IMG/VR virus record: IMGVR_UViG_3300046808_000240
Coordinates: 1 to 22,504 of that record
Length of the DNA: 22,504 nt
Strand: one strand, 5' to 3'
Origin: a virus
Part shown: positions 1-20,129 of the stretch, piece after piece
How positions within the stretch are numbered: the stretch's first letter is position 1
Layout: the number at the start of each line of letters is the position of its first letter
Notes under the pieces: model-generated
Told to the model about the DNA's origin: nothing
What the model saw: only the letters and a program-made list of their open reading frames with translations
Databases searched by the model: none
Made by a program: the position numbers and the translations under genes

Positions 1-110
1 AATAATACTATGAATATAGTATGTTGTCATTGGTTGAATGACGCCACCGAAGATGAAATTATCGAACATGATTGGAGTACCGACAATTAAACCACCGGTT
101 GAATTGGTTG
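1..110 (-). repeat. YYV beta module, copy 11, cut by the window edge
   Basis: About residues 5553-5589 contain GGLIVGTPIMFDN and IFGGVIQPMTTYYIHSI, then the frame leaves the window. The module is incomplete here, so the protein must continue past position 1. Confidence 0.7.
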
Positions 111-3100
111 TAATTGCATTATTACTTGCTTTAGTTCTACTGATTGTATTAGTCTTACCCAATACAAGTTTAGTACCATTCAAGAACACAATTGGGTCAG
201 TCCAAACAGTACCTGTACCAGTTTGAATATTAACAATCATTGAACCAGTTGCAGTTGCCAATGAGAATGTAGGACCTGCTGTACCTGTAATGCTGTTATA
301 ACTATCTGATACAGTGATTGTACTGGTTGCGACACTTACAGTCTTTACGTAATAAGTAGTTTCTTCTTGGATATTACCAAATGTAACACCTTGGAATGTA
401 ATTGGATCATTAACTGTAAAGTCAGAGACATTTACACATGTGATTCTGTCAGTAGTACCATCAGTAGCAGTTGCTTCCACTTCAATAGCATGTGAACCTG
501 TTCTAATTACACCTGAACCTTGGAAAATCGTTTCGCTGTAGTTGCAGTTTAAATAGATTTCATTGAAACCGGATTGAATGTTAGTTCTAATAGGATCAGT
601 ATCACTATTAGATTTAACCAATTGATCTCCGTTACCAACTTCATATACGTCTAAACGTAGACTTTGTGTAGAAGGTGACAAGTAATCTAATGGAGTGTTC
701 AATACAACAACCTTGTTTAGCCAATCAACAGTATATTCACTTGTTGGTAATGTAGTGCCCAAACCAGTTGTCGCATCTAATACCTGTACAAACACTTGTG
801 CAGGATATTGAAGTACTTCTGCAAAACTATATTCAGTTTGTGATGCTGAAGTTGGTGTCATTTCGGTACTGACTACTTTATATCCAGTATGTGCATACTC
901 AGTAACTGGCCAGTTAGTGCCAGGACGTGTTGTAACAATCATAGTTAGATTGTCAGTTACAACTCCCGGTACAAGTTCTTCTGGACCATAACCATATGGG
1001 AAGTCTGCACCTTTAACATCGTATACAGTTGGAGCAACCGTGAATAGTGAACTGCTTGTCCATGTAACACCGTTATCATCAGATACTAAAATAGTGTTGT
1101 TGTCACCTACTGCAATGAACGTTGAATCAGTGATATTGTAGTTAATACCATTTAGATTCTCAACAGTACCTGATGTTACAGTTGACCATGACAAATAATC
1201 TGAAGAAGTTTTAATAACACCTTCATCACCGACTGCGACCCATACACCATTTGCGTATGTAACATCACGCAATGTTAATGGATCGACTTCGTATAGATAC
1301 ATCATGGTTTGTTCTGGAACAGTAGTATTAACTAATGTTACCGGGCTACCACCTAATGTAGTTGAAACTTGAATCTGTGATCCTGAAACAACATTAACAA
1401 CATAGTAACTAGTTCCAGTTGATAACCCACCGACTGCGGCACTAAATCTTACAACATCATTAACTGCAAAACCTGCAGTATTTGTAACGTTGATTTGGTT
1501 TGTTGTTTCGTTGATAGAAATAATACTTACTTCATTGACACCTAACCAGTTAGCACCGTTATTTGTGTAATAAATGATGCCTGACTCACCAACTGCTACT
1601 GCAACTGAACCGTTATCAGCGATTGCATATAGACCCTTAGGTGTTAATGATGGAACTGTTGTCCAAGTTAAACCATCGTTGTTACTGTATAGAATTAAGT
1701 TAGTGTCAACGAGTAAAGTTACACCAGTTGAATAATCTGGGCGCTTGCCCTTACCAACTGCAATGAAGCCATTGAATGCAGTGATCTCAACATTATCAAC
1801 TCCGTACAATTGATTATTGTATTCTGGCTGGAATGTGTTTACTTCTCTCCAAATATATGTGTCATCACTGCGTACAATATTGTCGCCTACTGCTACATAA
1901 TAACCATTGCGATATGCAACACTGTTTAATGCTAGTGCCGCAATACTGATTGAGGTCATGTCATAAGGAATAGTATCGTACGGTACGCTTCCCCATGGTG
2001 TAAAGTAACCATTAGTTGTCCATGTGATGCCATCATTACTTCTGAACACCGGTGTAGCACTATTGGTTGAGGTCATTACATAATAACCGCCTGCATAGAT
2101 AATGTCAGTTGCACCAACACCAATGTTTGTTAATTTTGCAATTGCCCAGTTATCACCTGATGCACTGCCCAATACTGCTGAGTAGTCAGGTAGATTTGCA
2201 GCCGCAAGATAATGTGTTCCGTTCCAAACTACTGAGGTTACATCAACTTCAGTTGGGTAGAATGGCTGATCTGTCAATACTGTGTCTAGTTCAAATTGCT
2301 GACCCGGCTCGAATGGGTTACCCAAGTAAATTGAATTTGGATATGTGATACCCTCAAACAATTGTGTTAAGTCTACACCTGGCATATTGATAGTTGGCTG
2401 ATAGTAGCCAATTGTTCTATCAAGTGCATTCAATCTGCGGTCACCGCTATCTAGTAGTTCCCATTTACCAAATACGAATTCGTCATCATTGTTAGAAATG
2501 ATACAGATATAAACTCTACCATTGAACTTAACAATACTCTGATTGAAGTAGAATGGTTCGGGTAATAGTGCGAAACTTCCTGCCTTAGCAACAGTGAAGT
2601 CAACTGAAACTGTAGTAGGCATAGTAATCAAACTACCACCTGGTTCATCAGAAACAGTAAATGTTGTTGAGTTTACAATATCTAAGATATAGTAAGTGTT
2701 TCCTGCAACCAATGATGTTGGTGTAGTGTCGCCTGTAAACACAATTGCATCATTAACATTAAAGACGCTAGTATCTGCAATTGTCAATGTATCAGTAGAT
2801 GAGTTAATACCAGTTACACTTGCTGTAGTGAATCCAACATAGTTAAAGCCAATGCCTGATACAGGTACAGTCATCAATGGATCACTGTAAACGCCCAATG
2901 TATTTGGTGACAGCACCTTGAGATAGTATTGATTTGACAATCCAGGAACTGTTCCTGAACAAATCACATCAGTAATTTGTCCTGTTGAATTAATTGTGTT
3001 TACTGTTAGGGTAATGTCATTAGTTGGGCTTGTTCCACCAACTTCAGCACCACTAATAGTAATAGTATTGTTGATAGCAAATCCTGATCCAGGATCAGTG

Positions 3101-6100
3101 ATGATTGCACGATAACCACCCAATACATAAGAGATATCAAACTCAGGAATACCTGTAGTAAACTGTGTGAAACTTGATGTTGTTCCGGTAGAACTTGATG
3201 ATAGTGTTTCTGCACCACCACCAATACTAGTTGAAACAACAATATAAGGATCACCAGTACCAACCATGATGCCGTTAGCACCGGTTAAGTCTTTTGCTGT
3301 TCCAGTAGGTGTTTCTGAAATCTTAAATGTTGTTGGACTTGTAATTGATTGTACGAAATACTCTTGACCAATTACGATACCACCTAATGCAACACCAGTG
3401 AATACGATAGGCATTCTTACATATAATGATTCAGTTGTATCGCAAGTTAATTCATCTGTGCTTGCACTTGTATTAGTTACTTCTACTTGAATATTTGGTA
3501 AATACTCGCCTGGATTTAATGGATCTTCCATACCAGAATATTCAATGATATAGTAGTTAGTCGCAGTAGTCAATCCACCGATTGCACTATCAACACGCAA
3601 TGGCATGTTTACATAGAAATTATCAGTGCCGCCATCTGATTCAGGGATAGCAATTCTATCTACGGTAGCAATAGTAGCATTGATTGTTCTTTCAATCAAG
3701 TTACTGATAGTACCTGATGTGATAGCAGGATACTGTTCTGAAGTTTCATACAATGTAAACAACTGACCGTTAACTTGACCAGGACTTACTGGCAATGAAA
3801 CGTTCATTATCATTTCGCCAGTTGCAGTAGTTAATGTTACGGTATCGAACTGGTTAGTTAACAATGCATTAGTATTACTTGCGGCAGATACGTTACCTGG
3901 ATCAAATACTGAACCATTGACTAATGTTGAAATCTTTAATTGTGTATCACTTACAATCTGACTTACATAGTATGTTGTGCCTGAAACAATATTCCCAAAT
4001 GTGTTTGAAGCAGTGCCTGCTACAACCATTGTATTAAAGATGATTGGATCGTTAACTGAGAAACCTTCAGTTGATTCTACTGTGATAATGTCAGTTGATG
4101 ATGCGGCAGAATATGCTGTAGTAGATGTAGGTGTGTCATTTTCACTGATAGTGAAAGTTTCATCGTCAACTACTGTTCTAATATAGTAAGTTAGATTTTC
4201 AGTAATGCCACCGAATCCACCTGCACTAAAGAATACTGGTAGATTGACATAGAAACCACGTGTACCACCTGTACCAATAGCACTAATAGGAACTGTTAAC
4301 TTATTAGTTCCGGCTTCTGTTGCAGTGACAGTTAAAATACCTGGATAGTTTACAGTCAATACTGCGGTGTTGACTACTGATGCAACCAAACATGTCAATC
4401 CTTGTGCTGATACAGTAGCATCGGTTAATGAAATTACTGTACCGTTCTCATCCATAATAGAGAAATCAGAATCATTGATTACTTCGGCAACATAATAAGT
4501 TACACCTTCAGTGATTCCACCAAATGCGGCGCCGATGAATTTAACAGGCATACCTACTGTGAAGCCAATTGTTGATCCACTAGCATTGGGTTCAGTACTA
4601 CTGTAACTTAGTCTTACTACATCATTTGCAGCCACTGTTGCAGCCACAGTACGTTCAAATGTTGACCAGTTTACTTCCTGATCGTTCTCAACATCAACGA
4701 TTTCAAATGCAACACCTTGCGCACTAGCCAAAATGTTTTCAATTGGAGGCTGTGTGCTTTGTAATTGAATTGATGCACTGGCTACATTTTCACTGTTATA
4801 GTAACTACCTGCAAAGAATGAACCATAATATGCACCTGCTACCCAATCTTGAACTTGTGAACGATATGTTGTTCTGTCAAAACGTAGCGTAATGTTGTTT
4901 TCTCTGACTGGGCTTGCTGTAGTGATTGCGCTTGCTCTTGCACCCAAATTCAATGAGAATGTATCCGCAGTGCCATTGACAAAGATTTCAATACGATCTT
5001 TGTTATCTACCGCATCACTGTAACTTGAATACAATGCAACAATTGTACTTGGATTGTTTTCTAACACATTCACATAGTACCATTGATTGTTAATCAATTT
5101 ACCAATACCGGTACCGTCTTCTGCATCCTTGTATTGTACTAAGTCACCTGTTCTAATATTTGGTGCGTAAATGTTAATTGTATGCAATGATGAGTTTACC
5201 GCAGTGTCAGTGAAGAAAATCTGCAATGCCGGGTCAATTCTAATTTCAGGAAGAACAGCATAACCCTGACCTGGATCAATAACATTAACTTGTAATACGC
5301 TATCCAAACTCATTACTGCTTCTAGTACAGCAGGTCTTGTTGGTGCTGGGTACAAAGTTTGATCAATATATGCAGTTACCTTAGGAGGTTCAGTATATCC
5401 TCTACCACCATTTAGTAACAATACTGCAGGTAAGTCAATATAAATCTTTTCGCCAGGAATATGATCAACGATAGGAGTACCGTTTACACCTCTAATCAAT
5501 CCGCTGATTAGATTTAATGCACGATCCACTTGTGAGTAACCAATTTCTTCGTTGCCAATTCTAATAGTTCCGTTGATTGGGAAACCCTGAACATTGTCAA
5601 CAAGAATGAAACTTGAACTTAAATTCAAATATGAAGTTAGAACTGTAATTTCATAGTTTGGTTGACCTGTAATAGACACGCCTTTGTTAGCGAACCATTG
5701 ATTATATTCTGCATTTGACCAAATTTCATTAGTAGGTCCATACTCATATTCATTATTTGGTTCAGTATATACTAACTGAGGTGTAATGTACTTTTGATAC
5801 TGACTGTTATATTGTGCAGGTAAATCAAAGTCAGTGATGTTACCTTCAAATACTTCCTCGCCGGTATACTTGAATAAGAATTCTTTTACAACTACGTGAT
5901 AAGGCTTGACTTCATTAATATAACCTGCTAAGAAGTCTTGATTATCACTTTGGAATACTTCAATTGGACGTAGTTCACGAATCTTGTGCGCAACATCAAC
6001 CAATGAAGTCTTATTGAGCCAAGGCAAGAAGTTCTGAGATTCAGTTGTCTCAGTTTGAATGTATTCAAACAATAGAATCAATGATTTGTTTCTAAATGTC

Positions 6101-9100
6101 AACAAATCTTCAACATAAATCTGTTCGTTCAAAGCACGAACAATATATCTTGTTTCTTCACTTGGGTATGAGTCATAACTTGTTGTGTCAAAGAAGTCAC
6201 CACTGAAACCTAATTTTGCTTCAGCGTAATCCCATAGATAAACTTTGAACTGGATGGTACCGTTCTCTAGACCTACACGTGTCCATACACCTGATCCATC
6301 ATAACGATAAACTTCAAACTTACCTTCACCGTTTTGCTCCACAGTTACTAATGTGCCTGTTGCAACATTTAGTGCGGCAAGATCAGCATAAATGCTAACT
6401 TGCAATGCTGACTTAGTATTGTCATCATATCCAGTTGCCCACCAGTTTACGTATTCCCAATAATCAGTAGTATTGTAGAATTCCCCTTGTGCAAACAAGA
6501 AACTTGCTTCACGGCGTGTTTCTGCAATTGGGAACTGTGCTAGAACTGTGTTAGCATATAGCAAGTAGTTCTTTAAGCCCAAATATCTGTTATAGAAGAA
6601 ACTCTGACGAGGACGTGCTAAGATACCACTCTGTACTGCTTTTGGTAAGAATGGATTAGGTACAACTGCACCGGCTTCGTCAACACCTGATAAACTGTCA
6701 AGCAATCTATCATATAGACCTTCAGGTCTTAGTGTTGATCCAAACTGCGGAATGCCTGGTAAGAAGTCATCTGCATAGTTTTCTCTAATCAATGCAAACT
6801 CTTGGTGTGATACGTCACTACTTGTGCCGTTACTATATCCTACATGGAATACAGTGTCGTTTGCGTTGATATATTCAAGTGAGTTGTATAGACCAAATGT
6901 ATTTGGTAGCAATGGTGCCATGTATGCAATGCCAGAACCTCTAGGATTTGCAATATAGTTTGCAATAATAGTGTCTGATAATGTTTTGTCTCTTTGTGTG
7001 GCAACTAAGTTAGTATTTCTTACCCAGAAGTAATAAACCGGTACTACAACATTTGATGCATTCAATGTGCTACTGACGCTGAATAGGCTAATGTTGAGTG
7101 GAATTCCGGGACCTGGATATGCATTTGGTGGAACGAAACTTGAAACCCATGTATAAACAGCAACATCTGAACCTGGGAATACTTGACCCCAACGCTCTGA
7201 ATTGTAAACCACATCATCTTGATGGTAGTTTAGCCATCTTACATTGTTAGTGTTGAACCAAATTTGTCCAACATGTGCTTCACTCCAAACATAACCTGAT
7301 TGATCTGCTAAATCTGAATTGTATTTTGCAGGGTCTACACTAGAAACATAATCAATGTTTTGACGTACAGCACCTAGTAATTTACCCTGTAACGGATCCA
7401 TGTAATCTAAATTGATTAATGTATTATTAGTCTCGGCACTAAACAATTGTGTGTTCTGAATCTTGTTAATGTCTACAATTGGAGCAGACTGTCTGAAGAT
7501 TGACCAATCGGGAATACCTGTACTATTAGTATAAACAATAATTTCGCCACCAACTGTACCTGGCTGATAACCAGGAGTACCGATTACTACTTGGTATTCA
7601 TTGAAATCTAGTGCAGTACCATACATTGGTTGTGCGCCATATTCTTGATCTTGGCTATTAACAGACTGCGCATATACGAACTTACCTGGATTTACTAAAC
7701 TTTCGTTATAGTTATCCAAATAATCAAACATGTATACTGCACCTGCATTTTGATAACTGTCTACAAAGCGAGTAGCATTATTATCGAATACAGTGTCGTT
7801 GTCTAAGTTTTCATCGTCTGTAAAATCAAATGTAGTACCAGCATAACGTGTTCCAACTGGTGCAGAAATTACTACGCTATCAAATTCATTGAATTTAATA
7901 GTTGCACCAAACATTGTTGGACCCTGTTCATGTGGGCAAGTAATGATTTGAGTATTGGTATAGATTTCTAAACCTAGTTCAGAAAGAGTACTATTATCAA
8001 ATGCAGTTACTACTAACTTTTCATTTACAATTGTCAAGTCTTTATTAATTACTTGAATGATCAATTTATTATCTGAAGTGGCTGATGCCTCAACGTTAGT
8101 GATCTGAGCAGTATTAATAGTATTGGCAGCAACAGTTGCGTTACCTGCTGACAAGAATACTAGATATCCATTAATTAACAACTTGCGATTAGTTGTAACA
8201 TTACATTCATTTGTACCAATTACAACACCGTATTTGGCGCCACCGTTGGTATAACGATATACTGCGCCTTCTACGTTGTCATTGTTAATTTCTAATGGAG
8301 AACCGATTAGAATATCTGCACCTTGTGCAGTGATATCTAAATCATATCCAAACTGAATGTTAGTTCTGTCATTAAAGTCTGATGTGAAGGTTTGTAGTAG
8401 ATTGAACTCATTACCACTTACATTTACAATGTCGCCTGCACGTAATAGATTTGTATAATATAGACTTGAACCAACTACAGCATAGTTGTTATCTTGTACC
8501 AATACACCATTTACTGTTACATACAGTGGTGTAGTCTGTGCAGTTGCAGTTACGTTTGAAATTGATCCTACTGTTGCAACAGTTACTACATCTGTAGTTG
8601 AACGTGAAGTCTTGATAGTAATATCATTTCCTACTTTAGTTCTTACATAATAAACAGTGTTGCCGTTAATGCCTGTACCAGTTAATCCAATACCAGTAAA
8701 GATGATCGGATCGTTAACGCTGATACCTGTTGCACTTGCAAGAGTAATCAAGTTACCTGTTGCATTAGTTGCACTTACAGTAGTTGCAGTAGTATCAGGA
8801 GTCCATGCTAACTGATAGATTTGCGGTTCATTTGGTAATGAGTTGTACTGTGCTTCAATATTTTGAACTGTTCTTTGATATACATATGCACTGCCCCAAT
8901 CTGTGATTGAAGCACTGTAATCTTTGTTAGGCGCACTAACAACTAATACGTCACCGTTGTTGTCAGTTGACATTGCTTTACCAAAGTTGTCACCTGATAC
9001 TAGACCCAATACTGAACCGTCAATGATTGCAGATTGATTATAGGTTACTTGCATTGCAATACCTGGTGTTGTGCCACCTGATACTAATGCACTACCTGTA

Positions 9101-12100
9101 GTAGTTGCAACAAAAGTGATTCCAACTTTACCTTCAATAGCACCGGCTGCTACCCAATCAGTGTCACCGACTGTAGTAATAGTATAGGTTTGGCCTACAG
9201 TTAAGAATCCGGCAGTTAATTGAATTTGATCTCTACGATATACGTATACTTGATTGTTATCAATATCGGAGATGTACAACCAGTTAGTGTCATTAGACAA
9301 TGCTAATTCGCTACCCCAATTAGTTACACCGCCTGGTGCAGAAATTGTTTGGTAGTCTACAATATCATCTGACAATGTACTGTTGTTCAATGTATAAACA
9401 TAAACTTTAGGTGTGCCTGATGTTGGTTCTGATACAGCATATACATTGTTTGCATAAACAATAGTAGAACCAAATGAAGTTCCTTCAGTAATTGTTTCTG
9501 CTAAATCATATTGACTTGTCAATGCATTGTAAGCATAACGATATAGTTCGCCTGCATTTGCATCGCCAATCAAATATCCCATGTCACTTGTATATGCTAC
9601 AGCACTACCAAATGTGTCACCGTTTGGATCTCTACTTAATTCTTTTAGATATTGGTAATTGATATTCTTACGATATACTGCCCAATCACCATCACTGTTT
9701 TCGTCTACCCAAACAGTATTCTTACTGAATTCTGCTTCAAGTAAATCTACATTACCAATTTCACTAGGTGTTGCAACACGCTGTGATTCAAATGTTAGAC
9801 CAATGCCTCTGCCTTGCAATGACGTTTGGCTTGCATTTACAACGATTAAGTTAATGATAACTTCTAGTGTGTTGACAACATTTGTTACGATATAGTAACC
9901 ATCGACACTTGGTGCAAAGTTGATAATTGCTAATGGTTTTAACTTAGACAAGTTATGTGGATTGGCAAATCTAACTGTTGCAGTGTTGTTTAAGTTATTA
10001 CGTACTTCAACGATTTGTCCTGCTGGCTTCCATGAGTAAACATCCCAACGTTCTTTGAAGTTTGCAAGCCATAGATAATCTCTTACATAGAAATCTTGAA
10101 TAGGAACAATTTGATTGTTCTTATCTGTTGCTCTTGGTAAGCCTGCAAAGAAGTAACTTGCCATTTTAACATCGTCAAAATTGACATAACCTGCGTCAGG
10201 ATATAAGTCATTTGGAGGATTGTTAGTTACAGTACTCAATACGTTTGGACTGTTTACAGGGCGTCCATAGTTGAATAAACTGTACAACGGAACTTCCTGC
10301 ATTGAACCAACTGTTGGCATGCCCTCAGTCAATGACACGATGCTTGGGTTACCTGTCATATTGTTTTGATTGACGCGGAATTCAACAAAGTTGTCGTTTA
10401 ATACGCCACCGTACTCACCTTGTTTAATAGCCCAGTTTTCATATACTTCGTAGTCGATGCCACCTTGTGGCAAGTTAGCACCACGGAATGCTTCAACTGC
10501 ATTACGTGTACCTTTGTTCTTAATAAGGTTCTTATAAACGTTAACTTGTGTAACGTCTGTCAAATCTGCTAATGCTAGATAATCACGTGGGCGATAGCCA
10601 ATCAATGAGTATCCTAATAGGTTAGCATCTTGCTCTAGGTTAGCCTGGTTAACATCATAGTACAATGTACTTTCATAACTACGTGTACTTGAATTTGGCA
10701 GTAGTCCCTTTTGGATATCCTCGTAATCGATTTCTTTCCAATCTAGTTCTCTGAATACATTGCTTGGCTCAATAATCTTTAATGCAGTCCAATACTTGTT
10801 CTTGTATAGAACGATTTGACCCTTAACATACTTAAGTTCTCTTGACCATTCTTGAACGTTATCTTGATTCAAGATGAAGCCATAAGCATTGACTGTACCA
10901 TTCCACTCGGCTGTTTTAGTACCGCGCACATTAATACGTGATTGACGCAAACCAGTTGTCAAGTTATAAATGATATCGTTAAACAATGTAACGTTATCAA
11001 ATACAATGCCATGCTCAAAATTACTCATGTTAAACTGAGCATAACTCATTGCATCACCTTGGTTTAAGGTGTGGGTACTGAATAATGTTCCATCACGTTG
11101 TACACATAAGTTGTCCAATGAAATTGGATACAAGTTTTGATTTAGAATAAAGTTCTGCTGTTGTACTGTTAGTGGCTGAACGATTGTACTTTCTTTGTCA
11201 ATCTTCATCAACGTAGCACTTGGGTTTAGTGTAACTACGCTACCGTTTTCCCAACCAGTTTGTGTCCAGTATAGGAATTCATTAATCATTTGCTGCCAAG
11301 TAACTTCTAGACCATTTTGAACTTCATCAAAGATCATGCCCTTGCTCTTTAGCCAAGCGCCATAACTCATAATGAATTGTGAAACTTCTTGTACAGAATA
11401 GAAGCGAGTACCGTATGGCACTAATACTTCTTCATTCTGATAGTCATTTGTTACTTTGACTTTTAAGCCCTCAACATTAATGTTGGTATACTTACCGTTG
11501 TATAACGGTGCAAGTGTAGTGAAGTATGCAAAGTTTTGTGAATTACCATACACTGCCCATGCACCATCAAGTTGCTGAATGATAACACCTGAGTATGACA
11601 ATCTATCAAAAGGCTGATTGTCATATAACAATACTGCATATGATTCATCTGGAATCAACAAACTAGCATTGCGTGAGTTAGGAGTACCCTTTTCAACGTA
11701 GAACTTGAGTAATGTCTTATCGCTGTAACCTGCAAGTCTGTAAATCAATCTAACATCTAGATTATCTAATAGTTCAGTAATATTAGTTGTAGCATCAATA
11801 CCCAACTGCTTTTCATAATCAACAATCCAGTTAATGTATGAGGTCTTTGCAGTGCCGTTACCATAAATTTGAATATTACTGATATTCAAGTGGCTACGAT
11901 TGTCTACAAGATACTGATTAAATTCTTCGCTATATTTGTAGTTGTCAAGGTCTACTGCTAAGTTAAAGAACTCAGCAGGACGAGTTAATGCAAAAATTCT
12001 AGTTAAGTCAAACGGATAACTTGAACTTCTGCGATATGACAATTCTACTGGACCATCATCACCGACTTTCCAATCACGCTGGAATGTATTTGGATTATAG

Positions 12101-15100
12101 TTACCTACAATAGAATTCAACGGAGATATTAAATTACCTGCACTATCTACTGGTAGAATATTCAACAAGCCAGGACGTGCTAGTTCTTCAACATAGTATG
12201 GATCACCGTTGTTCCAAATATAACCCTGTTCTAAGTCAGTCCATAGAATCAAGTTTTCACTTGTGTATGGGGCAGGACCATATCTATCTGTCCACCAAGT
12301 TGGCTGATTTACAAAACCTAACATTTCCCATGGGCTAGTGTTTGGTGTTGTTGTGTCGTAGAAATACTCATACACACCTCTCCAATAGCCTTGAAGAATA
12401 GGCGCTTTGTCTAATTTGTTACCTGAGTTTACATAGTTGTAAGTGTATTCATCGTTCTTGTTGTAATACTGTGTTTTGTAATCTAAACGATTTTGACCTA
12501 CCCAGTTTAAGAATGACTCTGAATAAATTTCTAAAAATTCATTCCATGAATATGTAGGATCTCTAAAGAATCCAGGAACAACTTCATAACGCTCAATCGG
12601 CACTGTAGTGCTTAGTTTGAGGTTGTTGTAAATTCGCTTTTCAAATTCTAATAATGCCTGATCTCTAAAGTCAACCAAGGTATTAGATTCTGCAATGTAT
12701 TCGCCATATAGTTTAGTGTATGAGCCATCATGTCCCTTAATGAAATATGTAGGCTGTGTATAATCACTATCCAATACTACTGCAGGTTCATATGCAGGAT
12801 ACACGCCCAATTTAGTTGGAGTGTTTGGAATATATGAACCATATGTCTGATTATATTCTTTAATAGTAATTTGATCGCCGGCAAGTAATCCAATAGTAAC
12901 AGTCAATGATGGACTGTCTGTGCTAATAGTATAATCTACGTTGAGCAATAGTTGTGTCTGTGAAGTAAGACCTTCTACTGTTCTAGTCAAATAAACTAAT
13001 ACACCGTTATAGTTTGCTTGTGTGAAATTATATACTTGCGTTAATGGATAGATAGCAGTATCTAAGTCATTGTTGAAAGTATATGTATTTGTTCTGTATG
13101 GTGCCTTACTTGGCAACATGTCTGACCAAAAGAATGCATTTACTTGACTCTTCGCCGCAGTCATTTGATCTAATGCATCGTCTAGAATTTGTGCAGGAGT
13201 AAATCTTTGCACAAAATCCATGTTGTTAACTGTGTCTACTAATAACTGCTTGTACTTGATGTACTCGCGGCTGTTGAATAACAATGCATCAAATAGATTG
13301 TGATTTTGTTTGCGCAGGAATGTGCCTGGCAATACTAAACTTGCACTATTCTGAATAATTTTTGTACCATATGGTACAAGATTTCCTAAATCTCTAAAGT
13401 TGTTTGAACCAAAAATAGGTCCTTCTGTACCAGGAGCATTGATGAAAATGTCCTGATATTGTGAACGAATATCACCGATGTTAGCAGTAGTCAAATCTGC
13501 ATTGAATGGGTTATTGTTCAAGTTAATAGGAATAGTATAATAAGCAGTATTGCTTACTTGATTACTTAAAACTAGGATCTGAAATACAGTGTCTACGTCA
13601 CCAGTATTACTGAAGTTGACAGTAGTTGAATCAGTTCCAATTGTAACTGTGTAGTTCTGTGGTGCAACCCATTCATTATTGTTGTATACTTGAATTCTTG
13701 GCCAACCTAATTCACCGTCTGCTAATTCAGGTAACATAGCAACATCACATGTGAATGTACTAGTTGGATTTGCAATTGAATAATCAAAACTGAATAACTG
13801 ATATTGTACACTAGGTGCAATGGCAGTCTGCCAACCTAATTCACGTGCATATGACTCAATAGAATTATAGTTAAACACATATCCTGTGTTTACTTTTTGT
13901 GTGATAGGGTCAGTACCTCGAACATAATCAAAAGTATCGTTGTTTAATGTAATATCAAAACTAATATCACCTACGTTATCAATTGATGAATAACGAATCG
14001 GGAATCCTAAAATACTGTCATCTAATCCTGAACCAATACCATATTGGAATAGGGTACAACCAGCAAATGATGTACCTCTATAGATATCAGTATCACCAAA
14101 ACTAATTCCGTTCTCGTCATAGATATCAAACAACGGTGCTTGGTTAACTGTTACTTTTTGCTGTGCTTGAATCCATTCAATGCCGTCATAATAGAAACTG
14201 TCACCTTCATAATTGTAGCCTCTTAGAATTGCTACTTGATTATTTGGAACACACTCGCCATCTTCTGCAACAGTCAATGTAATGACCGGAGTTGATGAAG
14301 GAGTTAATGTTGAGAAGTTCACAACATAAATCTTGTTTCTTACGCTTGCATCGGTGTCTGCCGCAAAGATAACTCTTGCTTCAGGGAACAATGCAAAGTT
14401 GTCAACTGTTGTGTCTGTACCAATAATAGATGCATCAGCGGTTGATCCAACTGACTGTGAACCAGACCAAGAAATTGTTAGAGTTAATGTACCAGTACCA
14501 GTTCCTGCAATTGCACTAATTTGTGAGTTGTTAGGTAAAAGATTAGTAGAGTCAGTGACATACATACCAATTTGGAATGTACCAGTGACTTCATCTTCAT
14601 CTACTGTTACAGTGGTAGACGTACCTACAACTGAGGCAATAGTTGCTACATAACCTGTGTATACTTCAACATCAGGGTAATAGTTTTCCTGATTTGCTAC
14701 TGTTGATAATGCATCAGTAGTTCTAGTGTCAATAAAGTCAACAGCCTTTTTACCCACTGCACCTGAGTTGAATAACTTAAGGTTAGGGTAGAATTCAATA
14801 ATTGGACGCTTTGCTTTATTGTTAGCAGTTGCGTATGTAGTAACAATATCTGGATTGTTATTATATGAAGCAGTGTTATTGATTACGTCAATGTGGAACC
14901 AGCGGTTACTGCGTGACCAAGCGTTTTTACTAATGCTATTTCTTGCAATAGTAATATAGTCTGGATCAACAGGAACGAAAAGATTACTGTCAAAGTTTCC
15001 AATATCGTATGGAGTTGTGTCAAAAGGTATAAAAGTACTTTGAGTAAATCCTTCAGGACAGATCAATGAATCTACTGGAATTAGTTCAATGCTTGAGCCC

Positions 15101-16767
15101 ACACCTTCTACGTAATATTGACCCTGTAGATAACTTGACGGGATAACATCACCGTCAAACTCTACTTTAAGACCATTAGTAAAAACTACTCCATTAGTAG
15201 AAGTAAAGTTCTTTTGACCTAAAACGTCAGTTTCAATATCAAGTGTATTGGTAGTATTACTTTCAATGATTCTAATAATACCAACTTTATTTGCACTAGT
15301 ACCGTCTTGATAATATAATACATCTAGTGGTGCAGAAATATAAGGAACTAAACTAATGACACCTAAAGTATTTCTATAAAATAGGCGATCAATCCACTCA
15401 GTTCCAAACTGTGCTGTGATTTTTTGTTCTGTTGGAATGATACCATCTGGGATCAAACGCAATACTGGATCATCAGGATTGCCAACATATTCAATTCTGT
15501 AGAAGTTCTGATTTACAGTAGTGTAGAATCCTTCTTCATACAAGCCCTGATTAATATTAACTGTCATTGTGCCTGAGCCAGCAGTTAATGTTAATGGAGA
15601 ACCAGCAGTTAATGTGGTTGCAATTGTAAATGTAGTTGATGATGGGATACTATGAACATAATATACTTGTCCACCTGTGATGCCACCAAATACCGGATTG
15701 TCAAAAGTAACTGTTTGACCTACTACTAATCCTTCAGTTGTACCTGATGCTAAACTAAATGCAGTTGTGTTGCAACTTGATACTGTTAACGTTAGCGGTG
15801 CAACTAACAAATCATCGTTTACGTCAAAGTTTGTTTCGCCAAAGTATGATGAAACATAACCAATCTCACTTGCAATGCCTGTATTATAGAACATAACACG
15901 CAAGCCATTAAGAGATGTGATGCCGTCAATATCGCCTACATCTGCCAAACGCTGACCGTTGATTTCTGAAAATGGGGTTGTGCTTACAACATCAACTAAG
16001 TTGTTGCCTGGAAATATATATTCATCTTGTGCATTTTTTGCAGGAACAGTAAATGTAACAATACCCTGACTTGCACCGTTATTTGATACACCGAATACAT
16101 CTCTAACTGGCAAGTTAGGTTGTGTTGGACTGTATCCACTTACACCCGGTTCACCTTGAATCCAAAACTGACTATCTTGATTAACGATGAATCTATATGT
16201 ACCGCCGCGCAAGAAAGTCAACGTTGGGTTAAGTGTACCTGCACCTGCACCCAATGTTCTAATGTTATATCCATTAGGTAGATCAGTTACAACATAATCA
16301 TTGGTAGCAAACACTGTGGCACTGGCTACAGTTACCGCAGGTGCTCCATCAGGTAACCAATAGTATTGGTTGAAGTTAATGATTTTATCTAGGCTTGTGA
16401 ATGAATCCCATGAATAGAATTGGCTCTCAAACAATCTACTGTTGTTATCAGTAACGCCACCTTGAAGATTTAAACTGTCAATTATGCCAGGGTATGTAAT
16501 AAAATCTTGAGCCTTGCTCTGATTCTTTTTAGTGAACACAACACCAGGATCTAATTGATAGTCTCTGCGTGTTTTTGTAGGTTCAGTTACATAATAATCT
16601 TTTGCATTTACACCATAACCAAACTTACTACCCACGTATCCTTGAATACGCATAGTGTTTGGTGGATTGACTAATTGGTCAAGCGTAGCGCCTAGGAATT
16701 CAGCATTACTAGGAGTTCTGAAAATTTCTGGTAGAAACTCAAGGGTTCTAATTCTGTTTGTAGCCAT
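1..16767 (-). CDS. Giant multidomain virion structural protein (baseplate/tail-fibre associated), 3' end beyond window
   Basis: ATG at 16767 opens a frame of 5,589 codons that is still open at position 1. I checked every codon and found no in-frame TAA, TAG or TGA. It begins 8 nt after the gp6 stop. No strong Shine-Dalgarno is visible, only AAG/ATAAG-type sequence, so translation may be coupled to gp6. The N-terminus (MATNRIRTLEFLPEIFRTP) and blocks such as SRSNRWFHID (near residue 620) and PWEMLGF (near residue 1480) resemble, from memory, large structural proteins of marine T4-like phages. Visible modules are an FG-GAP propeller at about residues 2370-3090, GGRGYTEPP/DPGQGYAVLPE motifs at about 3790-3850, an Asp-box propeller at about 4840-5260, and at least eleven YYV beta modules. 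The protein is rich in N, T, V, Y and G, as in beta-rich fibres. I see no signal peptide or membrane segment. A virion role is inferred from context and composition; the exact role is unknown. T4's largest protein, gp34, is about 1,290 aa. Confidence 0.93.
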   Translation of the reverse strand, partial: MATNRIRTLEFLPEIFRTPSNAEFLGATLDQLVNPPNTMRIQGYVGSKFGYGVNAKDYYVTEPTKTRRDYQLDPGVVFTKKNQSKAQDFITYPGIIDSLNLQGGVTDNNSRLFESQFYSWDSFTSLDKIINFNQYYWLPDGAPAVTVASATVFATNDYVVTDLPNGYNIRTLGAGAGTLNPTLTFLRGGTYRFIVNQDSQFWIQGEPGVSGYSPTQPNLPVRDVFGVSNNGASQGIVTFTVPAKNAQDEYIFPGNNLVDVVSTTPFSEINGQRLADVGDIDGITSLNGLRVMFYNTGIASEIGYVSSYFGETNFDVNDDLLVAPLTLTVSSCNTTAFSLASGTTEGLVVGQTVTFDNPVFGGITGGQVYYVHSIPSSTTFTIATTLTAGSPLTLTAGSGTMTVNINQGLYEEGFYTTVNQNFYRIEYVGNPDDPVLRLIPDGIIPTEQKITAQFGTEWIDRLFYRNTLGVISLVPYISAPLDVLYYQDGTSANKVGIIRIIESNTTNTLDIETDVLGQKNFTSTNGVVFTNGLKVEFDGDVIPSSYLQGQYYVEGVGSSIELIPVDSLICPEGFTQSTFIPFDTTPYDIGNFDSNLFVPVDPDYITIARNSISKNAWSRSNRWFHIDVINNTASYNNNPDIVTTYATANNKAKRPIIEFYPNLKLFNSGAVGKKAVDFIDTRTTDALSTVANQENYYPDVEVYTGYVATIASVVGTSTTVTVDEDEVTGTFQIGMYVTDSTNLLPNNSQISAIAGTGTGTLTLTISWSGSQSVGSTADASIIGTDTTVDNFALFPEARVIFAADTDASVRNKIYVVNFSTLTPSSTPVITLTVAEDGECVPNNQVAILRGYNYEGDSFYYDGIEWIQAQQKVTVNQAPLFDIYDENGISFGDTDIYRGTSFAGCTLFQYGIGSGLDDSILGFPIRYSSIDNVGDISFDITLNNDTFDYVRGTDPITQKVNTGYVFNYNSIESYARELGWQTAIAPSVQYQLFSFDYSIANPTSTFTCDVAMLPELADGELGWPRIQVYNNNEWVAPQNYTVTIGTDSTTVNFSNTGDVDTVFQILVLSNQVSNTAYYTIPINLNNNPFNADLTTANIGDIRSQYQDIFINAPGTEGPIFGSNNFRDLGNLVPYGTKIIQNSASLVLPGTFLRKQNHNLFDALLFNSREYIKYKQLLVDTVNNMDFVQRFTPAQILDDALDQMTAAKSQVNAFFWSDMLPSKAPYRTNTYTFNNDLDTAIYPLTQVYNFTQANYNGVLVYLTRTVEGLTSQTQLLLNVDYTISTDSPSLTVTIGLLAGDQITIKEYNQTYGSYIPNTPTKLGVYPAYEPAVVLDSDYTQPTYFIKGHDGSYTKLYGEYIAESNTLVDFRDQALLEFEKRIYNNLKLSTTVPIERYEVVPGFFRDPTYSWNEFLEIYSESFLNWVGQNRLDYKTQYYNKNDEYTYNYVNSGNKLDKAPILQGYWRGVYEYFYDTTTPNTSPWEMLGFVNQPTWWTDRYGPAPYTSENLILWTDLEQGYIWNNGDPYYVEELARPGLLNILPVDSAGNLISPLNSIVGNYNPNTFQRDWKVGDDGPVELSYRRSSSYPFDLTRIFALTRPAEFFNLAVDLDNYKYSEEFNQYLVDNRSHLNISNIQIYGNGTAKTSYINWIVDYEKQLGIDATTNITELLDNLDVRLIYRLAGYSDKTLLKFYVEKGTPNSRNASLLIPDESYAVLLYDNQPFDRLSYSGVIIQQLDGAWAVYGNSQNFAYFTTLAPLYNGKYTNINVEGLKVKVTNDYQNEEVLVPYGTRFYSVQEVSQFIMSYGAWLKSKGMIFDEVQNGLEVTWQQMINEFLYWTQTGWENGSVVTLNPSATLMKIDKESTIVQPLTVQQQNFILNQNLYPISLDNLCVQRDGTLFSTHTLNQGDAMSYAQFNMSNFEHGIVFDNVTLFNDIIYNLTTGLRQSRINVRGTKTAEWNGTVNAYGFILNQDNVQEWSRELKYVKGQIVLYKNKYWTALKIIEPSNVFRELDWKEIDYEDIQKGLLPNSSTRSYESTLYYDVNQANLEQDANLLGYSLIGYRPRDYLALADLTDVTQVNVYKNLIKNKGTRNAVEAFRGANLPQGGIDYEVYENWAIKQGEYGGVLNDNFVEFRVNQNNMTGNPSIVSLTEGMPTVGSMQEVPLYSLFNYGRPVNSPNVLSTVTNNPPNDLYPDAGYVNFDDVKMASYFFAGLPRATDKNNQIVPIQDFYVRDYLWLANFKERWDVYSWKPAGQIVEVRNNLNNTATVRFANPHNLSKLKPLAIINFAPSVDGYYIVTNVVNTLEVIINLIVVNASQTSLQGRGIGLTFESQRVATPSEIGNVDLLEAEFSKNTVWVDENSDGDWAVYRKNINYQYLKELSRDPNGDTFGSAVAYTSDMGYLIGDANAGELYRYAYNALTSQYDLAETITEGTSFGSTIVYANNVYAVSEPTSGTPKVYVYTLNNSTLSDDIVDYQTISAPGGVTNWGSELALSNDTNWLYISDIDNNQVYVYRRDQIQLTAGFLTVGQTYTITTVGDTDWVAAGAIEGKVGITFVATTTGSALVSGGTTPGIAMQVTYNQSAIIDGSVLGLVSGDNFGKAMSTDNNGDVLVVSAPNKDYSASITDWGSAYVYQRTVQNIEAQYNSLPNEPQIYQLAWTPDTTATTVSATNATGNLITLASATGISVNDPIIFTGIGLTGTGINGNTVYYVRTKVGNDITIKTSRSTTDVVTVATVGSISNVTATAQTTPLYVTVNGVLVQDNNYAVVGSSLYYTNLLRAGDIVNVSGNEFNLLQTFTSDFNDRTNIQFGYDLDITAQGADILIGSPLEINNDNVEGAVYRYTNGGAKYGVVIGTNECNVTTNRKLLINGYLVFLSAGNATVAANTINTAQITNVEASATSDNKLIIQVINKDLTIVNEKLVVTAFDNSTLSELGLEIYTNTQIITCPHEQGPTMFGATIKFNEFDSVVISAPVGTRYAGTTFDFTDDENLDNDTVFDNNATRFVDSYQNAGAVYMFDYLDNYNESLVNPGKFVYAQSVNSQDQEYGAQPMYGTALDFNEYQVVIGTPGYQPGTVGGEIIVYTNSTGIPDWSIFRQSAPIVDINKIQNTQLFSAETNNTLINLDYMDPLQGKLLGAVRQNIDYVSSVDPAKYNSDLADQSGYVWSEAHVGQIWFNTNNVRWLNYHQDDVVYNSERWGQVFPGSDVAVYTWVSSFVPPNAYPGPGIPLNISLFSVSSTLNASNVVVPVYYFWVRNTNLVATQRDKTLSDTIIANYIANPRGSGIAYMAPLLPNTFGLYNSLEYINANDTVFHVGYSNGTSSDVSHQEFALIRENYADDFLPGIPQFGSTLRPEGLYDRLLDSLSGVDEAGAVVPNPFLPKAVQSGILARPRQSFFYNRYLGLKNYLLYANTVLAQFPIAETRREASFLFAQGEFYNTTDYWEYVNWWATGYDDNTKSALQVSIYADLAALNVATGTLVTVEQNGEGKFEVYRYDGSGVWTRVGLENGTIQFKVYLWDYAEAKLGFSGDFFDTTSYDSYPSEETRYIVRALNEQIYVEDLLTFRNKSLILLFEYIQTETTESQNFLPWLNKTSLVDVAHKIRELRPIEVFQSDNQDFLAGYINEVKPYHVVVKEFLFKYTGEEVFEGNITDFDLPAQYNSQYQKYITPQLVYTEPNNEYEYGPTNEIWSNAEYNQWFANKGVSITGQPNYEITVLTSYLNLSSSFILVDNVQGFPINGTIRIGNEEIGYSQVDRALNLISGLIRGVNGTPIVDHIPGEKIYIDLPAVLLLNGGRGYTEPPKVTAYIDQTLYPAPTRPAVLEAVMSLDSVLQVNVIDPGQGYAVLPEIRIDPALQIFFTDTAVNSSLHTINIYAPNIRTGDLVQYKDAEDGTGIGKLINNQWYYVNVLENNPSTIVALYSSYSDAVDNKDRIEIFVNGTADTFSLNLGARASAITTASPVRENNITLRFDRTTYRSQVQDWVAGAYYGSFFAGSYYNSENVASASIQLQSTQPPIENILASAQGVAFEIVDVENDQEVNWSTFERTVAATVAANDVVRLSYSSTEPNASGSTIGFTVGMPVKFIGAAFGGITEGVTYYVAEVINDSDFSIMDENGTVISLTDATVSAQGLTCLVASVVNTAVLTVNYPGILTVTATEAGTNKLTVPISAIGTGGTRGFYVNLPVFFSAGGFGGITENLTYYIRTVVDDETFTISENDTPTSTTAYSAASSTDIITVESTEGFSVNDPIIFNTMVVAGTASNTFGNIVSGTTYYVSQIVSDTQLKISTLVNGSVFDPGNVSAASNTNALLTNQFDTVTLTTATGEMIMNVSLPVSPGQVNGQLFTLYETSEQYPAITSGTISNLIERTINATIATVDRIAIPESDGGTDNFYVNMPLRVDSAIGGLTTATNYYIIEYSGMEDPLNPGEYLPNIQVEVTNTSASTDELTCDTTESLYVRMPIVFTGVALGGIVIGQEYFVQSITSPTTFKISETPTGTAKDLTGANGIMVGTGDPYIVVSTSIGGGAETLSSSSTGTTSSFTQFTTGIPEFDISYVLGGYRAIITDPGSGFAINNTITISGAEVGGTSPTNDITLTVNTINSTGQITDVICSGTVPGLSNQYYLKVLSPNTLGVYSDPLMTVPVSGIGFNYVGFTTASVTGINSSTDTLTIADTSVFNVNDAIVFTGDTTPTSLVAGNTYYILDIVNSTTFTVSDEPGGSLITMPTTVSVDFTVAKAGSFALLPEPFYFNQSIVKFNGRVYICIISNNDDEFVFGKWELLDSGDRRLNALDRTIGYYQPTINMPGVDLTQLFEGITYPNSIYLGNPFEPGQQFELDTVLTDQPFYPTEVDVTSVVWNGTHYLAAANLPDYSAVLGSASGDNWAIAKLTNIGVGATDIIYAGGYYVMTSTNSATPVFRSNDGITWTTNGYFTPWGSVPYDTIPYDMTSISIAALALNSVAYRNGYYVAVGDNIVRSDDTYIWREVNTFQPEYNNQLYGVDNVEITAFNGFIAVGKGKRPDYSTGVTLLVDTNLILYSNNDGLTWTTVPSLTPKGLYAIADNGSVAVAVGESGIIYYTNNGANWLGVNEVSIISINETTNQINVTNTAGFAVNDVVRFSAAVGGLSTGTSYYVVNVVSGSQIQVSTTLGGSPVTLVNTTVPEQTMMYLYEVDPLTLRDVTYANGVWVAVGDEGVIKTSSDYLSWSTVTSGTVENLNGINYNITDSTFIAVGDNNTILVSDDNGVTWTSSSLFTVAPTVYDVKGADFPYGYGPEELVPGVVTDNLTMIVTTRPGTNWPVTEYAHTGYKVVSTEMTPTSASQTEYSFAEVLQYPAQVFVQVLDATTGLGTTLPTSEYTVDWLNKVVVLNTPLDYLSPSTQSLRLDVYEVGNGDQLVKSNSDTDPIRTNIQSGFNEIYLNCNYSETIFQGSGVIRTGSHAIEVEATATDGTTDRITCVNVSDFTVNDPITFQGVTFGNIQEETTYYVKTVSVATSTITVSDSYNSITGTAGPTFSLATATGSMIVNIQTGTGTVWTDPIVFLNGTKLVLGKTNTISRTKASNNAITTNSTGGLIVGTPIMFDNFIFGGVIQPMTTYYIHSII
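270..420 (-). repeat. YYV beta module, copy 10
   Basis: About residues 5450-5498 contain FTVNDPITFQGV, FGNIQEETTYYVKTV and STITVSDS. It keeps the complete consensus, including the VNDPI lead-in. Confidence 0.75.
1020..2250 (-). other. Asp-box (BNR-type) beta-propeller region
   Basis: Seven Asp-box-like turns (S-x-D-x-G-x-x-W) occur near residues 4870 (SGDNWA), 4910 (SNDGITW), 4967 (SDDTYIW), 5028 (SNNDGLTW), 5068 (TNNGANW), 5188 (SSDYLSW) and 5229 (SDDNGVTW). Most are preceded by a blade strand of the form G-x-(Y/W/F)-V/I-A-V-G, for example GYYVAVGDN, GVWVAVGDEG and STFIAVGDNN. Asp boxes mark blades in sialidases, YCF48-like and sortilin-type propellers. They are structural, so no enzyme activity is implied. 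The 120-residue gap between the fifth and sixth boxes contains a YYV module. Confidence 0.75.
1330..1500 (-). repeat. YYV beta module, copy 9 (inside the Asp-box propeller)
   Basis: About residues 5090-5145 contain GFAVNDVVRFSAAVGG, LSTGTSYYVVNVVSG and SQIQVSTTLGG. It separates the Asp-box blade ending NNGANW from the next one at SSDYLSW. This places a small module inside a larger propeller. Confidence 0.7.
2630..2760 (-). repeat. YYV beta module, copy 8
   Basis: About residues 4670-4713 contain NVNDAIVFTGDT, SLVAGNTYYILDIVN and STTFTVSDEP. It shares both the VNDxI lead-in and the T-x-F-x-V-S tail with the other copies. It lies just before the Asp-box propeller. Confidence 0.7.
2880..3120 (-). 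repeat. DPGSGFAI / GGTSPTNDITLTV beta module
   Basis: About residues 4550-4630 read IITDPGSGFAINNTITISGA, EVGGTSPTNDITLTV and then SNQYYLKVLSP. The pattern G-S-G-(Y/F)-x-x-x-x-x-x-T-I-x-G-x-x-x-G-G-x-x-x-x-N-D resembles a module I recall from several marine phage tail proteins. The closing SNQYYLKVL looks like a degenerate YYV module. Confidence 0.5.
3260..4560 (-). repeat. Cluster of five YYV beta modules (copies 3-7)
   Basis: Five copies of the module are centred near residues 4082 (FGGITEGVTYYVAEV), 4185 (FGGITENLTYYIRTV), 4257 (FGNIVSGTTYYVSQI), 4396 (IGGLTTATNYYIIEY) and 4461 (LGGIVIGQEYFVQSI). Each is preceded by a hydrophobic strand of the type P-I/V-x-F and followed by a strand such as ETFTISE or TTFKISE. 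Spacing varies from about 65 to 140 residues because other beta segments lie between copies. The copies have diverged in DNA sequence and are recognisable only as protein, so the family is old. The function is unknown; such arrays commonly form stalks or receptor-facing surfaces. Confidence 0.75.
5200..5480 (-). other. GxGYxxPP-type segment of the giant protein
   Basis: About residues 3763-3857 contain LLLNGGRGYTEPPKVTAYID and, some 45 residues later, NVIDPGQGYAVLPEIRIDP. The paired motif G-x-G-Y-x-x-(P)P-x-(V/I) marks a short repeated beta unit that I recall from phage tail proteins. The preceding region (about nt 5500-7000) is rich in W, Y and F and non-repetitive, like the other core blocks. 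Confidence 0.5.
8610..8760 (-). repeat. YYV beta module, copy 2 (inside the FG-GAP region)
   Basis: About residues 2670-2720 read ISVNDPIIFTGIG, GTGINGNTVYYVRTK and ITIKTSRS. The VNDPI lead-in and the YYV core match copies near the C-terminal end. This copy lies in the long gap between FG-GAP blades four and five. Confidence 0.7.
9010..9230 (-). other. Beta module inserted between FG-GAP blades (GQTYTITTVGDTDW)
   Basis: About residues 2513-2586 include LTAGFLTVGQTYTITTVG, DTDWVAAGAIEGKVG and ITFVATTTGSALV. The pattern V-G-x-x-Y-T-I-x-x-x-G-D-T-D-W/F resembles small beta modules I recall from marine phage structural proteins. It lies between the YVYRR end of one FG-GAP blade and the FGKAM start of the next, so it is an insertion into the propeller. 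Confidence 0.55.
11960..12410 (-). other. Conserved W/Y-rich core block (PWEMLGF...PTWW) of the giant protein
   Basis: About residues 1453-1603. In order it contains GYWRGVYEYFYDT, SPWEMLGFVNQPTWW, TDRYGPAPY, GYIWNNGDPYYVEELARPG, FQRDWKVGDDGPVELSYRRS and SSYPFDLTRIFALTRPAEFF. Tryptophan and tyrosine density is high and there is no internal repetition, in contrast with the beta modules elsewhere. I recall the PWEMLGF and YRRSS-x-YPF strings from other large phage structural proteins. The function is unknown. Confidence 0.5.
14860..15000 (-). other. Conserved aromatic block SRSNRWFHID in the giant protein
   Basis: About residues 590-637 read DPDYITIARNSISKNAWSRS, then NRWFHIDVI. It is soon followed by RPIIEFYPNLKLFNSG. 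The spacing of W, R and aromatic residues is typical of a folded domain rather than a repeat linker. I recall very similar strings from other marine T4-like virion proteins. No function can be assigned from sequence alone. Confidence 0.5.
15578..15615 (-). repeat. Short in-frame tandem duplication
   Basis: The 14-mer ccagcagttaatgt occurs at 15578-15591 and again at 15602-15615. The 24-nt period is eight codons and gives TLTAGSPLTLTAGS. It sits directly after YYV module copy 1, looks like a recent slippage or duplication, and keeps the frame. Confidence 0.75.
15610..15730 (-). repeat. YYV beta module, copy 1
   Basis: About residues 347-386 read VFGGITGGQVYYVHSI followed by STTFTIA. This is the first, isolated copy of the module that recurs toward the C-terminal side: a hydrophobic strand, F/L-G-G/N-I, a short turn, then T-Y-Y-V-x-x-I and S-x-T-x-F-x-I. 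Confidence 0.75.
16300..16767 (-). other. N-terminal conserved region of the giant protein
   Basis: Residues 1-156 lack the beta-module repeats and contain LPEIFRTPSNAEFLGATLDQ, then a segment rich in K, D and Y, then FESQFYSWDSF and INFNQYYWLPDGAPAV. I recall the pattern 'LPEIF..., LDQLV..., W-x-x-x-x-x-L-D-K-x-x-N-F-x-x-Y-Y-W-L' from large virion proteins of marine T4-like phages. Being N-terminal and non-repetitive, it is the likely attachment domain to the baseplate wedge. That role is inference. Confidence 0.6.
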
Positions 16768-19700: not shown

Positions 19701-20129
19701 TAAGATAGGAAGATTACTAAGATTTAAACCATTAATGTCTGTTAGATTTTGAGTGGTTTGAATACTTGATACTTTAAGATAACCTTGACCTGCAATATTT
19801 CTTTTTGGCGTATAAGAGACTAATTCAGCAAGTTTAATAACACTGTCACGGCGTTCTGCGGTATCAATAAAGTTTTCACGTGCATTTAAGTCATTGCGGA
19901 ATGCAAGACCCTGCCCCATGAATGCGATAACGTCTAGTAGTGCTACGAATTCTGAACTTTCAACATAATCATTGAATGTTTCAGGGTAGTATAGACGCAA
20001 ATAATCGATGAAACTCTTACGTAGAGTCTCATAATCATAACTTCTAAAGTCGGCTTCTCTAAACGTTTGGTAGATTGTTTTCCAATCATTTACGCCGAAT
20101 AATGCTGATTGTCGTGAACTGGTTGCCAT
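16776..20129 (-). CDS. 6: Baseplate wedge subunit gp6 (T4-like), enlarged
   Basis: gp6 is the core of the baseplate wedge in T4-like phages. Its dimers form the ring around the central hub and hold the wedge components together. The N-terminus has the gp6-type character: FREADFRSYDYETLRKSFID, then YYPETFNDYVESSEFVALLD, IAFMGQGLAFRNDLNARENF and IDTAERRDSVIKLAELVSYTP (residues about 23-107). The last 120 residues (GTIKVIKASN, IRSAVLQAMNNYF, WNFGDTFYFSELSAFLHA) match the conserved gp6 C-terminal domain. The length is 1117 aa against about 660 in T4; the extra length lies in a beta-rich middle (about residues 130-950). ATG at 20129 is preceded by AGAGA six nt upstream. It lies 50 nt after gp25 and 8 nt before the giant gene, and stops with TAA. 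The assignment comes from recalled family features plus the gp25 neighbour. Confidence 0.9.
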   Translation of the reverse strand: MATSSRQSALFGVNDWKTIYQTFREADFRSYDYETLRKSFIDYLRLYYPETFNDYVESSEFVALLDVIAFMGQGLAFRNDLNARENFIDTAERRDSVIKLAELVSYTPKRNIAGQGYLKVSSIQTTQNLTDINGLNLSNLPILWNDPANPNWLEQFNTVINATLVDTQRIGKPGNISELLGVTTSEYTIRIPSNNLPIVPFNSTIDGQTMGFELVSATSMDADYIYEVPPAPNGRFNMLYRNDKLGFGSPETGFFFYFKQGSLQNFDFTLQQQISNQNIDINIQGINNTDTWLYQLNADGTRTLWDKVDNVYADAYLQTEFSEKKIFSVNSRFNDQVTYVFGDGVFSQIPVGNFRAYVRAGNALTYTIEPSEMQGISVAFTYIDRTGRAQTLTIGLELPLTVSTAQARETLANIKQRAPTRYYTQNRMVNGEDYSNFPYTLYSSIIKSKAINRSSVGVSKNLDLLDPTGKYSSTNSYGSDGALYQDDTDGFLTLTINNTSDIIAFFTNTLAAALADNNATQYYIQNYSRYTIPAGTYWKTSTVDASAETGYFYTVSGSLEQPQSVGIFSSTNLKYITTGAIVKFQAPTGYYFDNNNRLVAGIPGPGNPTYIWSTILNVVGDGSNNGEGSFANGLGPIKVNGYVPDGVTATEVIPVFDNSLSTTLIQECIIRMELQQDFTLVFNNSLLINQERWSIQSFTNPNYFVKFTSLGGNRYTITFKSLTYYFGSVADIRFTFAKDELVYDPFSGKIIQDFINMLAVNSQFNSSSPLGKDIKVNILGQTVESDGYVNDFEVEVASTDVNNRQLILSPDFFNEITGYVNNGANIGVYVFFEEVQDAINLTRQYIIPTSDVVYQYGTKTQIEVIKYDYPLGQLFYAYTENKFYKTFQDQTVTTPSYVVTEQIQYSVKPGRQGLSFQYRHNSNNTTRIDPVTTNIIDLYVVTQAYYTAYTNWITDVTGTVVEPDRPTISELNQEYGEVQKFKMLSDAVVLNSVVFKPLFGPKADPALRGTIKVIKASNTNASDSEIRSAVLQAMNNYFNVNNWNFGDTFYFSELSAFLHAECGELISSAVLVPNNPSQPFGDLYEIKCLPYEIFVNAAIASDVLVVPALTPAELQIR

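Follow-up and report, generated by a model that had tools for sequence, protein, structure and literature searches.

Related Giant Proteins of Jumbo Phages

In bacteriophage T4, the gene for the baseplate wedge subunit gp7 (1,032 aa) directly follows that for gp6. In the solved tail of A-1(L), the sheath initiator (gp30), the wedge proteins (gp31 and gp32), and the fibres (gp33 and gp34) are numbered consecutively (PMC10966104). Pectobacterium phage CBB and Klebsiella phage RaK2 encode much larger proteins directly after gp6, namely CBB_236 (3,340 aa) and ORF070 (3,326 aa), and gp355 (3,857 aa) of Pseudomonas phage PA5oct (Wroclawvirus) likewise lies after gp25 and gp6. CBB_236 was detected in virions by mass spectrometry (21 peptides, 7.72% coverage; PMC5259590 Table 4), and ESI-MS/MS is noted in the record of PA5oct gp355. 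Among T4 homologues, the report on CBB names those of gp6, gp25, and gp53; gp7 does not appear in it at all (PMC5259590). Homologues are also present in Agrobacterium phage Atu_ph07 (gp180, 4,449 aa) and Sinorhizobium phage Phosso (4,555 aa).

Here we describe a relative of these proteins encoded in a 22,504-bp stretch of DNA, hereafter called the window, which is an entire IMG/VR record. The window protein matches phrog_10938, a family of 3,324 positions annotated as “virion structural protein,” and is orthologous to CBB_236, RaK2 ORF070, and PA5oct gp355. It is homologous to the CBB and RaK2 proteins over the conserved core and is ~28–36% identical to PA5oct gp355 in the matched parts. However, these three proteins are shorter (expected masses of roughly 350–430 kDa for those of CBB and PA5oct), the RaK2 and PA5oct members lack the ~77-aa modules described below, and the FG-GAP region of gp355 is barely alignable. 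The Atu_ph07 and Phosso homologues share the core and an alignable propeller region, but they lack the modules and have a different C-terminal part. The window gene is real and very large, but not unprecedented, and its product belongs, with many other giants, to a catalogued virion protein family.

A Genuine Gene Truncated by the Contig Edge

As an earlier note made from the sequence alone had described, a frame of 5,589 codons without a stop runs on the minus strand from the ATG at position 16767 through position 1, where it is open at the left contig edge and a beta module is cut (aa 5539–5589):

1–16767, (−), giant ORF, 5,589 codons visible, with its 3′ end beyond the contig and ~820 codons predicted to be missing

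Stops occur at ~17–71 per 1,500 bases across the other five frames of the same stretch, and the probability of a chance frame of such length, calculated from base composition, is ~10^-175. Moreover, dN/dS values relative to the closest relative (contig G013, with 78% identity across the query segment) are 0.10–0.22 in all fourteen 400-aa bins along the entire length, although these ratios are approximate because dS exceeds 1. The composition probability and the purifying selection rule out a chance frame, in agreement with the earlier note and with the matches to phrog_10938. The giant frame is therefore a genuine gene that is truncated by the contig edge. The choice of start codon agrees with the relatives: the majority of them open with a sequence like MARIRTLNFLPEIFQT at the equivalent place.

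Because the IMG/VR record extends no farther than the window, the stop codon of the giant gene lies outside the readable sequence, and exact searches of IMG/VR with two 30–32-mers returned no contig overlapping the left edge. The G013 contig is colinear with the window to this edge, such that residue 5589 of the window protein corresponds to residue 5584 of the 6,404 residues (701 kDa) encoded by G013. Given this colinearity and the ~820 further codons to the G013 stop, the complete window protein should comprise ~6,400 aa with a mass of ~700 kDa. The C terminus of the relatives contains the sequence ...GDPLQIS.... The prediction in the earlier note of a longer protein of well over 600 kDa thus agrees with the 613.8 kDa of the visible part and with the comparison to G013.

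Across ~3,700 residues the window protein matches phrog_10938, with four successive 1,000-aa segments giving values of 3.1e-70, 5.9e-133, 5.8e-18, and 5.9e-58; profile searches with the last 1,589 visible residues yielded no PHROG match. The giant gene is present in 84 IMG/VR contigs, and its frame is unbroken in nearly all of them. The complete IMG/VR relatives retrieved range from 4,137 to 7,256 aa, with the longest given as 7,258 aa by the search tool. Proteins of the window clade have ~5,463–7,258 aa, those of a sister clade ~4,650–5,190 aa, and those of cultured jumbo phages 3,326–4,555 aa. The suggestion that this frame ranks with the longest known from phages is fair, but the length is unexceptional within the family, and proteins of up to 7,694 aa were predicted for huge phages in 2020 (Al-Shayeb et al., PMC7162821). 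These huge-phage giants and the “YHYH domain” proteins in BFVD are of the same size class, and the 7,694-aa protein is likened to the window protein by size only.

The earlier note had proposed a comparison with giant proteins of marine T4-like phages. Kinship instead lies with RaK2-like and PA5oct-like jumbo phages, as tblastn searches with two segments matched jumbo-phage records only. The isolate records matched by segments of the giant protein are nearly all 284–490 kb in size, and contigs carrying relatives reach 348,701 bp, the window itself being a 22.5-kb fragment. Its source is probably an uncultured jumbo myophage.

Two relatives have broken frames. One contig (G037) has a single TAA within the giant frame, and in another (L139 on contig G033) the gene is split over several frames, for which sequence error and real decay are both possible explanations.

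Conserved Regions and Candidate Domains of the Giant Protein

The following regions were delineated in the visible part of the protein:

16348–16767, (−), conserved N-terminal region, aa 1–140 (FLPEIF.T..N..FL.ATLDQL), also seen in cultured jumbo phages and poorly predicted alone
15259–16314, (−), cupredoxin-like beta sandwich, aa ~152–503, broken by beta module 1
13564–13824, (−), small beta domain, aa ~982–1068, resembling phage tailspike and tail-adaptor anchors
10168–12867, (−), most conserved family core, aa ~1301–2200, ~24–28% identical to isolates
10714–10860, (−), CBM5/12-like carbohydrate-binding segment, aa ~1970–2018 (approximate)
7528–9612, (−), seven FG-GAP-like blades, aa ~2386–3080
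5668–7470, (−), second region conserved across all cultured relatives examined, aa ~3100–3700
988–2250, (−), Asp-box/BNR-type propeller-like region, aa ~4840–5260, with one module inserted

Sequence conservation is concentrated in residues 1–260, 500–700, 800–2200, and 3100–3700, with some of these regions recognizable down to the most distant isolates, and the length-variable places lie between them. Residues 1–140 are a possible wedge-attachment region. At the length-variable places, at least two inserted segments unlike the ~77-aa module were observed, at positions 14368–14667 (aa 701–800) and 9058–9270 (aa ~2500–2570).

Residues ~2386–3080 probably form a seven-bladed propeller with insertions, based on matches to FG-GAP_2 (25.8 bits; Pfam cutoff 23) and to seven-bladed lactonase-type propeller profiles. 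A motif scan places the blade starts near residues 2386, 2432, 2484, 2595, 2806, 2953, and 3049. The region at residues ~4840–5260 is a weak candidate for a second propeller, with PSII_BNR and Vps10 matches below cutoff and Asp-box motifs at residues 5028 and 5229. The CBM5/12 segment was assigned from Pfam matches in 8 of 23 relatives; the window protein's own segment matched 0 families in the same search. Solved structures searched by sequence returned propeller matches only, plus one tail-fibre match (E 0.0016). The host surface may be contacted through the propellers and the CBM-like segment.

AlphaFold models were examined for residues 1–1099 of a relative (L104) and for residues 3000–3720 (model 2). 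Together they correspond to roughly one-third of the visible protein, and their confidence is low (mean pLDDT values of 58 and 61). Structural matches were restricted to the cupredoxin-like and tail-anchor-like domains in the better-predicted parts of L104, with Z scores (8–9.3) near the stated background of the alignment tool. The beta sandwich aligned with laccases in VIA-align (Z ~8.5), and the small beta domain aligned with CBA120 TSP4 (Z 9.3, rmsd 1.2 over 64 aa) and with a tail chain of LME-1 (Z 8.9). Model 2 gave nothing convincing, its best Z being not above 5.1. BFVD “YHYH domain” proteins from uncultured Caudovirales phages also match the N-terminal model, with E values down to 1e-70.

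Beta Modules and Protein Length

A beta module of ~77 aa with the consensus ..GFYVNDPIVFTGTVFGGIVAGTTYYVKSIISSTTFTIS.. occurs in 11 copies in the window protein:

15559–15792, (−), beta module copy 1, aa 326–403, at a site that lacks the module in some relatives
8548–8787, (−), beta module copy within the FG-GAP propeller, aa 2661–2740
2593–4647, (−), six beta module copies, aa 4041–4725 (4041–4123, 4144–4222, 4215–4299, 4359–4414, 4427–4503, and 4648–4725)
1306–1533, (−), beta module copy, aa 5079–5154
232–483, (−), beta module copy, aa 5429–5512
1–153, (−), beta module copy truncated at the contig edge, aa 5539–5589

Most members of the window clade carry 9–17 copies. Only one copy is present in each of two relatives (G024 and G025), and none was found in another (G026) or in the five isolates searched, RaK2 included. 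Most copies occupy shared positions, whereas some positions are filled in just one or two relatives. Module-free sites are visible in some relatives, including one inside the propeller.

Among complete relatives, module copy number correlates with protein length (r=0.89, uncorrected for relatedness, so that the points are not independent because module count and length share ancestry). The modules thus appear to be the source of much of the extra length of the giant protein. Because the copies are diverged and interspersed, no tandem DNA repeats were found in the window. Searches of the retrieved DNA gave no modules beyond the giant gene, with all eight matches being pieces of that gene.

Several aspects of this protein class are already known: the family is catalogued, cultured members have been seen by mass spectrometry, chunks of similar proteins are present in BFVD, and proteins of up to 7,694 aa have been reported from huge phages (PMC7162821). 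Growth in length through a ~77-aa module seems to be undescribed, according to a literature search that was not exhaustive.

Gene Neighborhood and Predicted Role in the Baseplate

Three genes precede the giant gene on the same strand, in the order spike, gp25, and gp6, with the giant gene following immediately:

20662–22503, (−), gp5/VgrG-like baseplate spike, low-complexity C-terminal part, with its 5′ end off the contig; the complete homologue in contig G001 matches Phage_base_V and phrog_13211
20180–20641, (−), gp25-like sheath initiator/wedge subunit, 153 aa, Pfam GPW_gp25 (28.6 bits, cutoff 27.2)
16776–20129, (−), gp6-like baseplate wedge subunit, 1,117 aa, phrog_10646 (4e-260) and phrog_219 (1.5e-22), also matched by tblastn

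The order spike–gp25–gp6–giant gene–fibres is conserved in relatives, and gp25, gp6, and the giant gene follow one another in PA5oct, Phosso, Atu_ph07, RaK2, and CBB alike. Salicola phage SCTP-2 is an exception, with gp6 located elsewhere in the genome. On the 3′ side of the giant gene, most relatives encode a protein of 204–222 aa (phrog_11259 in G001) and fibre-like proteins.

Given that orthologues have been detected in virions, the window protein is a probable virion component, which accords with one half of the earlier proposal of a very large virion component or fibre (PMC5259590 and the PA5oct record). The fibre half is not the best reading, because the gene belongs to a baseplate operon and lies directly after gp6. 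Instead, the protein most likely takes the place of gp7 in the wedge. We prefer to say that it works in the place of gp7 rather than that it is a gp7. No sequence similarity to T4 gp7 was detected (hhalign probability not above 0.5% for any of the six segments compared), nor any profile similarity to T4 gp10. Furthermore, no wedge protein and no chain of the gp7/TriB fold was listed among the Foldseek and VIA-align matches of the two low-confidence models, whose combined coverage is roughly one-third of the visible protein. The proposed gp7-like function thus derives from gene position.

One alternative is that the protein is a tail fibre or whisker, an extended appendage that is encoded beside the wedge genes but forms no part of the wedge. 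The beta-rich, modular composition, the small domain resembling tailspikes and tail anchors, and fold types that often bind sugars are all consistent with this possibility, and the RaK2-like phage CBB bears tail whiskers (PMC5259590). However, the giant gene is consistently located right behind gp25 and gp6, fibre-like proteins have genes of their own downstream, and large conserved cores free of repeats are unusual for a fibre. We therefore regard an appendage as a serious but clearly less favored explanation. Another possibility is that the chain is made in one piece and processed into several virion proteins as the particle assembles. Prohead proteases are known from T4-like phages, but the papers examined contain no cleavage data for the phrog_10938 family, and we judge processing of this kind to be unlikely.

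Finally, the length might reflect misassembly or a fused gene pair, with a missed stop or frameshift concealing a shorter product. The window is a single metagenomic contig, and the broken frames in G037 and G033 lend this concern some substance. Against it stand colinear unbroken frames, present in sequenced isolates as well as in dozens of contigs, together with uniform purifying selection, which make an artefact of this type highly improbable.

We therefore favor, with reasonable but far from complete confidence, the interpretation that the visible ORF represents the 5′ ~87% of a gene whose ~6,400-aa product is a giant virion protein associated with the baseplate of an uncultured myophage, probably a jumbo one, and that this product fills a gp7-type place in the wedge and extends an arm of propellers and modules. 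In such an arrangement, one copy per wedge would serve as the third wedge subunit, anchored on gp6 by the regions conserved in its N-terminal part and core (residues 1–260, 500–700, 800–2200, and 3100–3700). A large arm surrounding the baseplate would be built from the propellers, the beta modules, and the CBM-like segment; this arm could contact sugars on the host surface and provide a docking site for the fibres whose genes lie downstream. The modules may be spacers or adhesive units that were added to loops over time, which would make the protein longer in the window clade.

A bolder version of this proposal is that a single ~700-kDa chain per wedge not only replaces gp7 in the window clade but also makes up most of the outer baseplate, as a titin-like arm that grew by repeated insertion of the ~77-aa module into loops of older domains, so that the number of modules would set how far the baseplate reaches or how well it adheres. 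We offer this only tentatively and consider it doubtful as a whole. One of the largest phage protein classes is tied to a baseplate operon in both cultured and uncultured jumbo phages. If the assignment to the gp7 place is true, six copies of ~700 kDa would add megadaltons of extra protein around the jumbo-phage wedge.

Several minor observations concern the flanking genes. The window ORF at 20662–22503 gave a match to a tape measure protein (PHROG 1.8e-4), but this assignment was ruled out because the complete G001 gene identifies the ORF as the tail of the gp5-like spike. This spike has a very long C-terminal extension of low complexity, rich in Ala, Gly, and Ser, and in G001 it is a 1,243-aa protein (L198 4379–8107). 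A fibre-like gene downstream of the giant gene in G001 (L201 653–1876) has a borderline match to Peptidase_G2, an intramolecular chaperone. In SCTP-2, a second giant frame of 9,291 bp (L004 8612–17902; about 3,096 aa) is located directly before the homologue.
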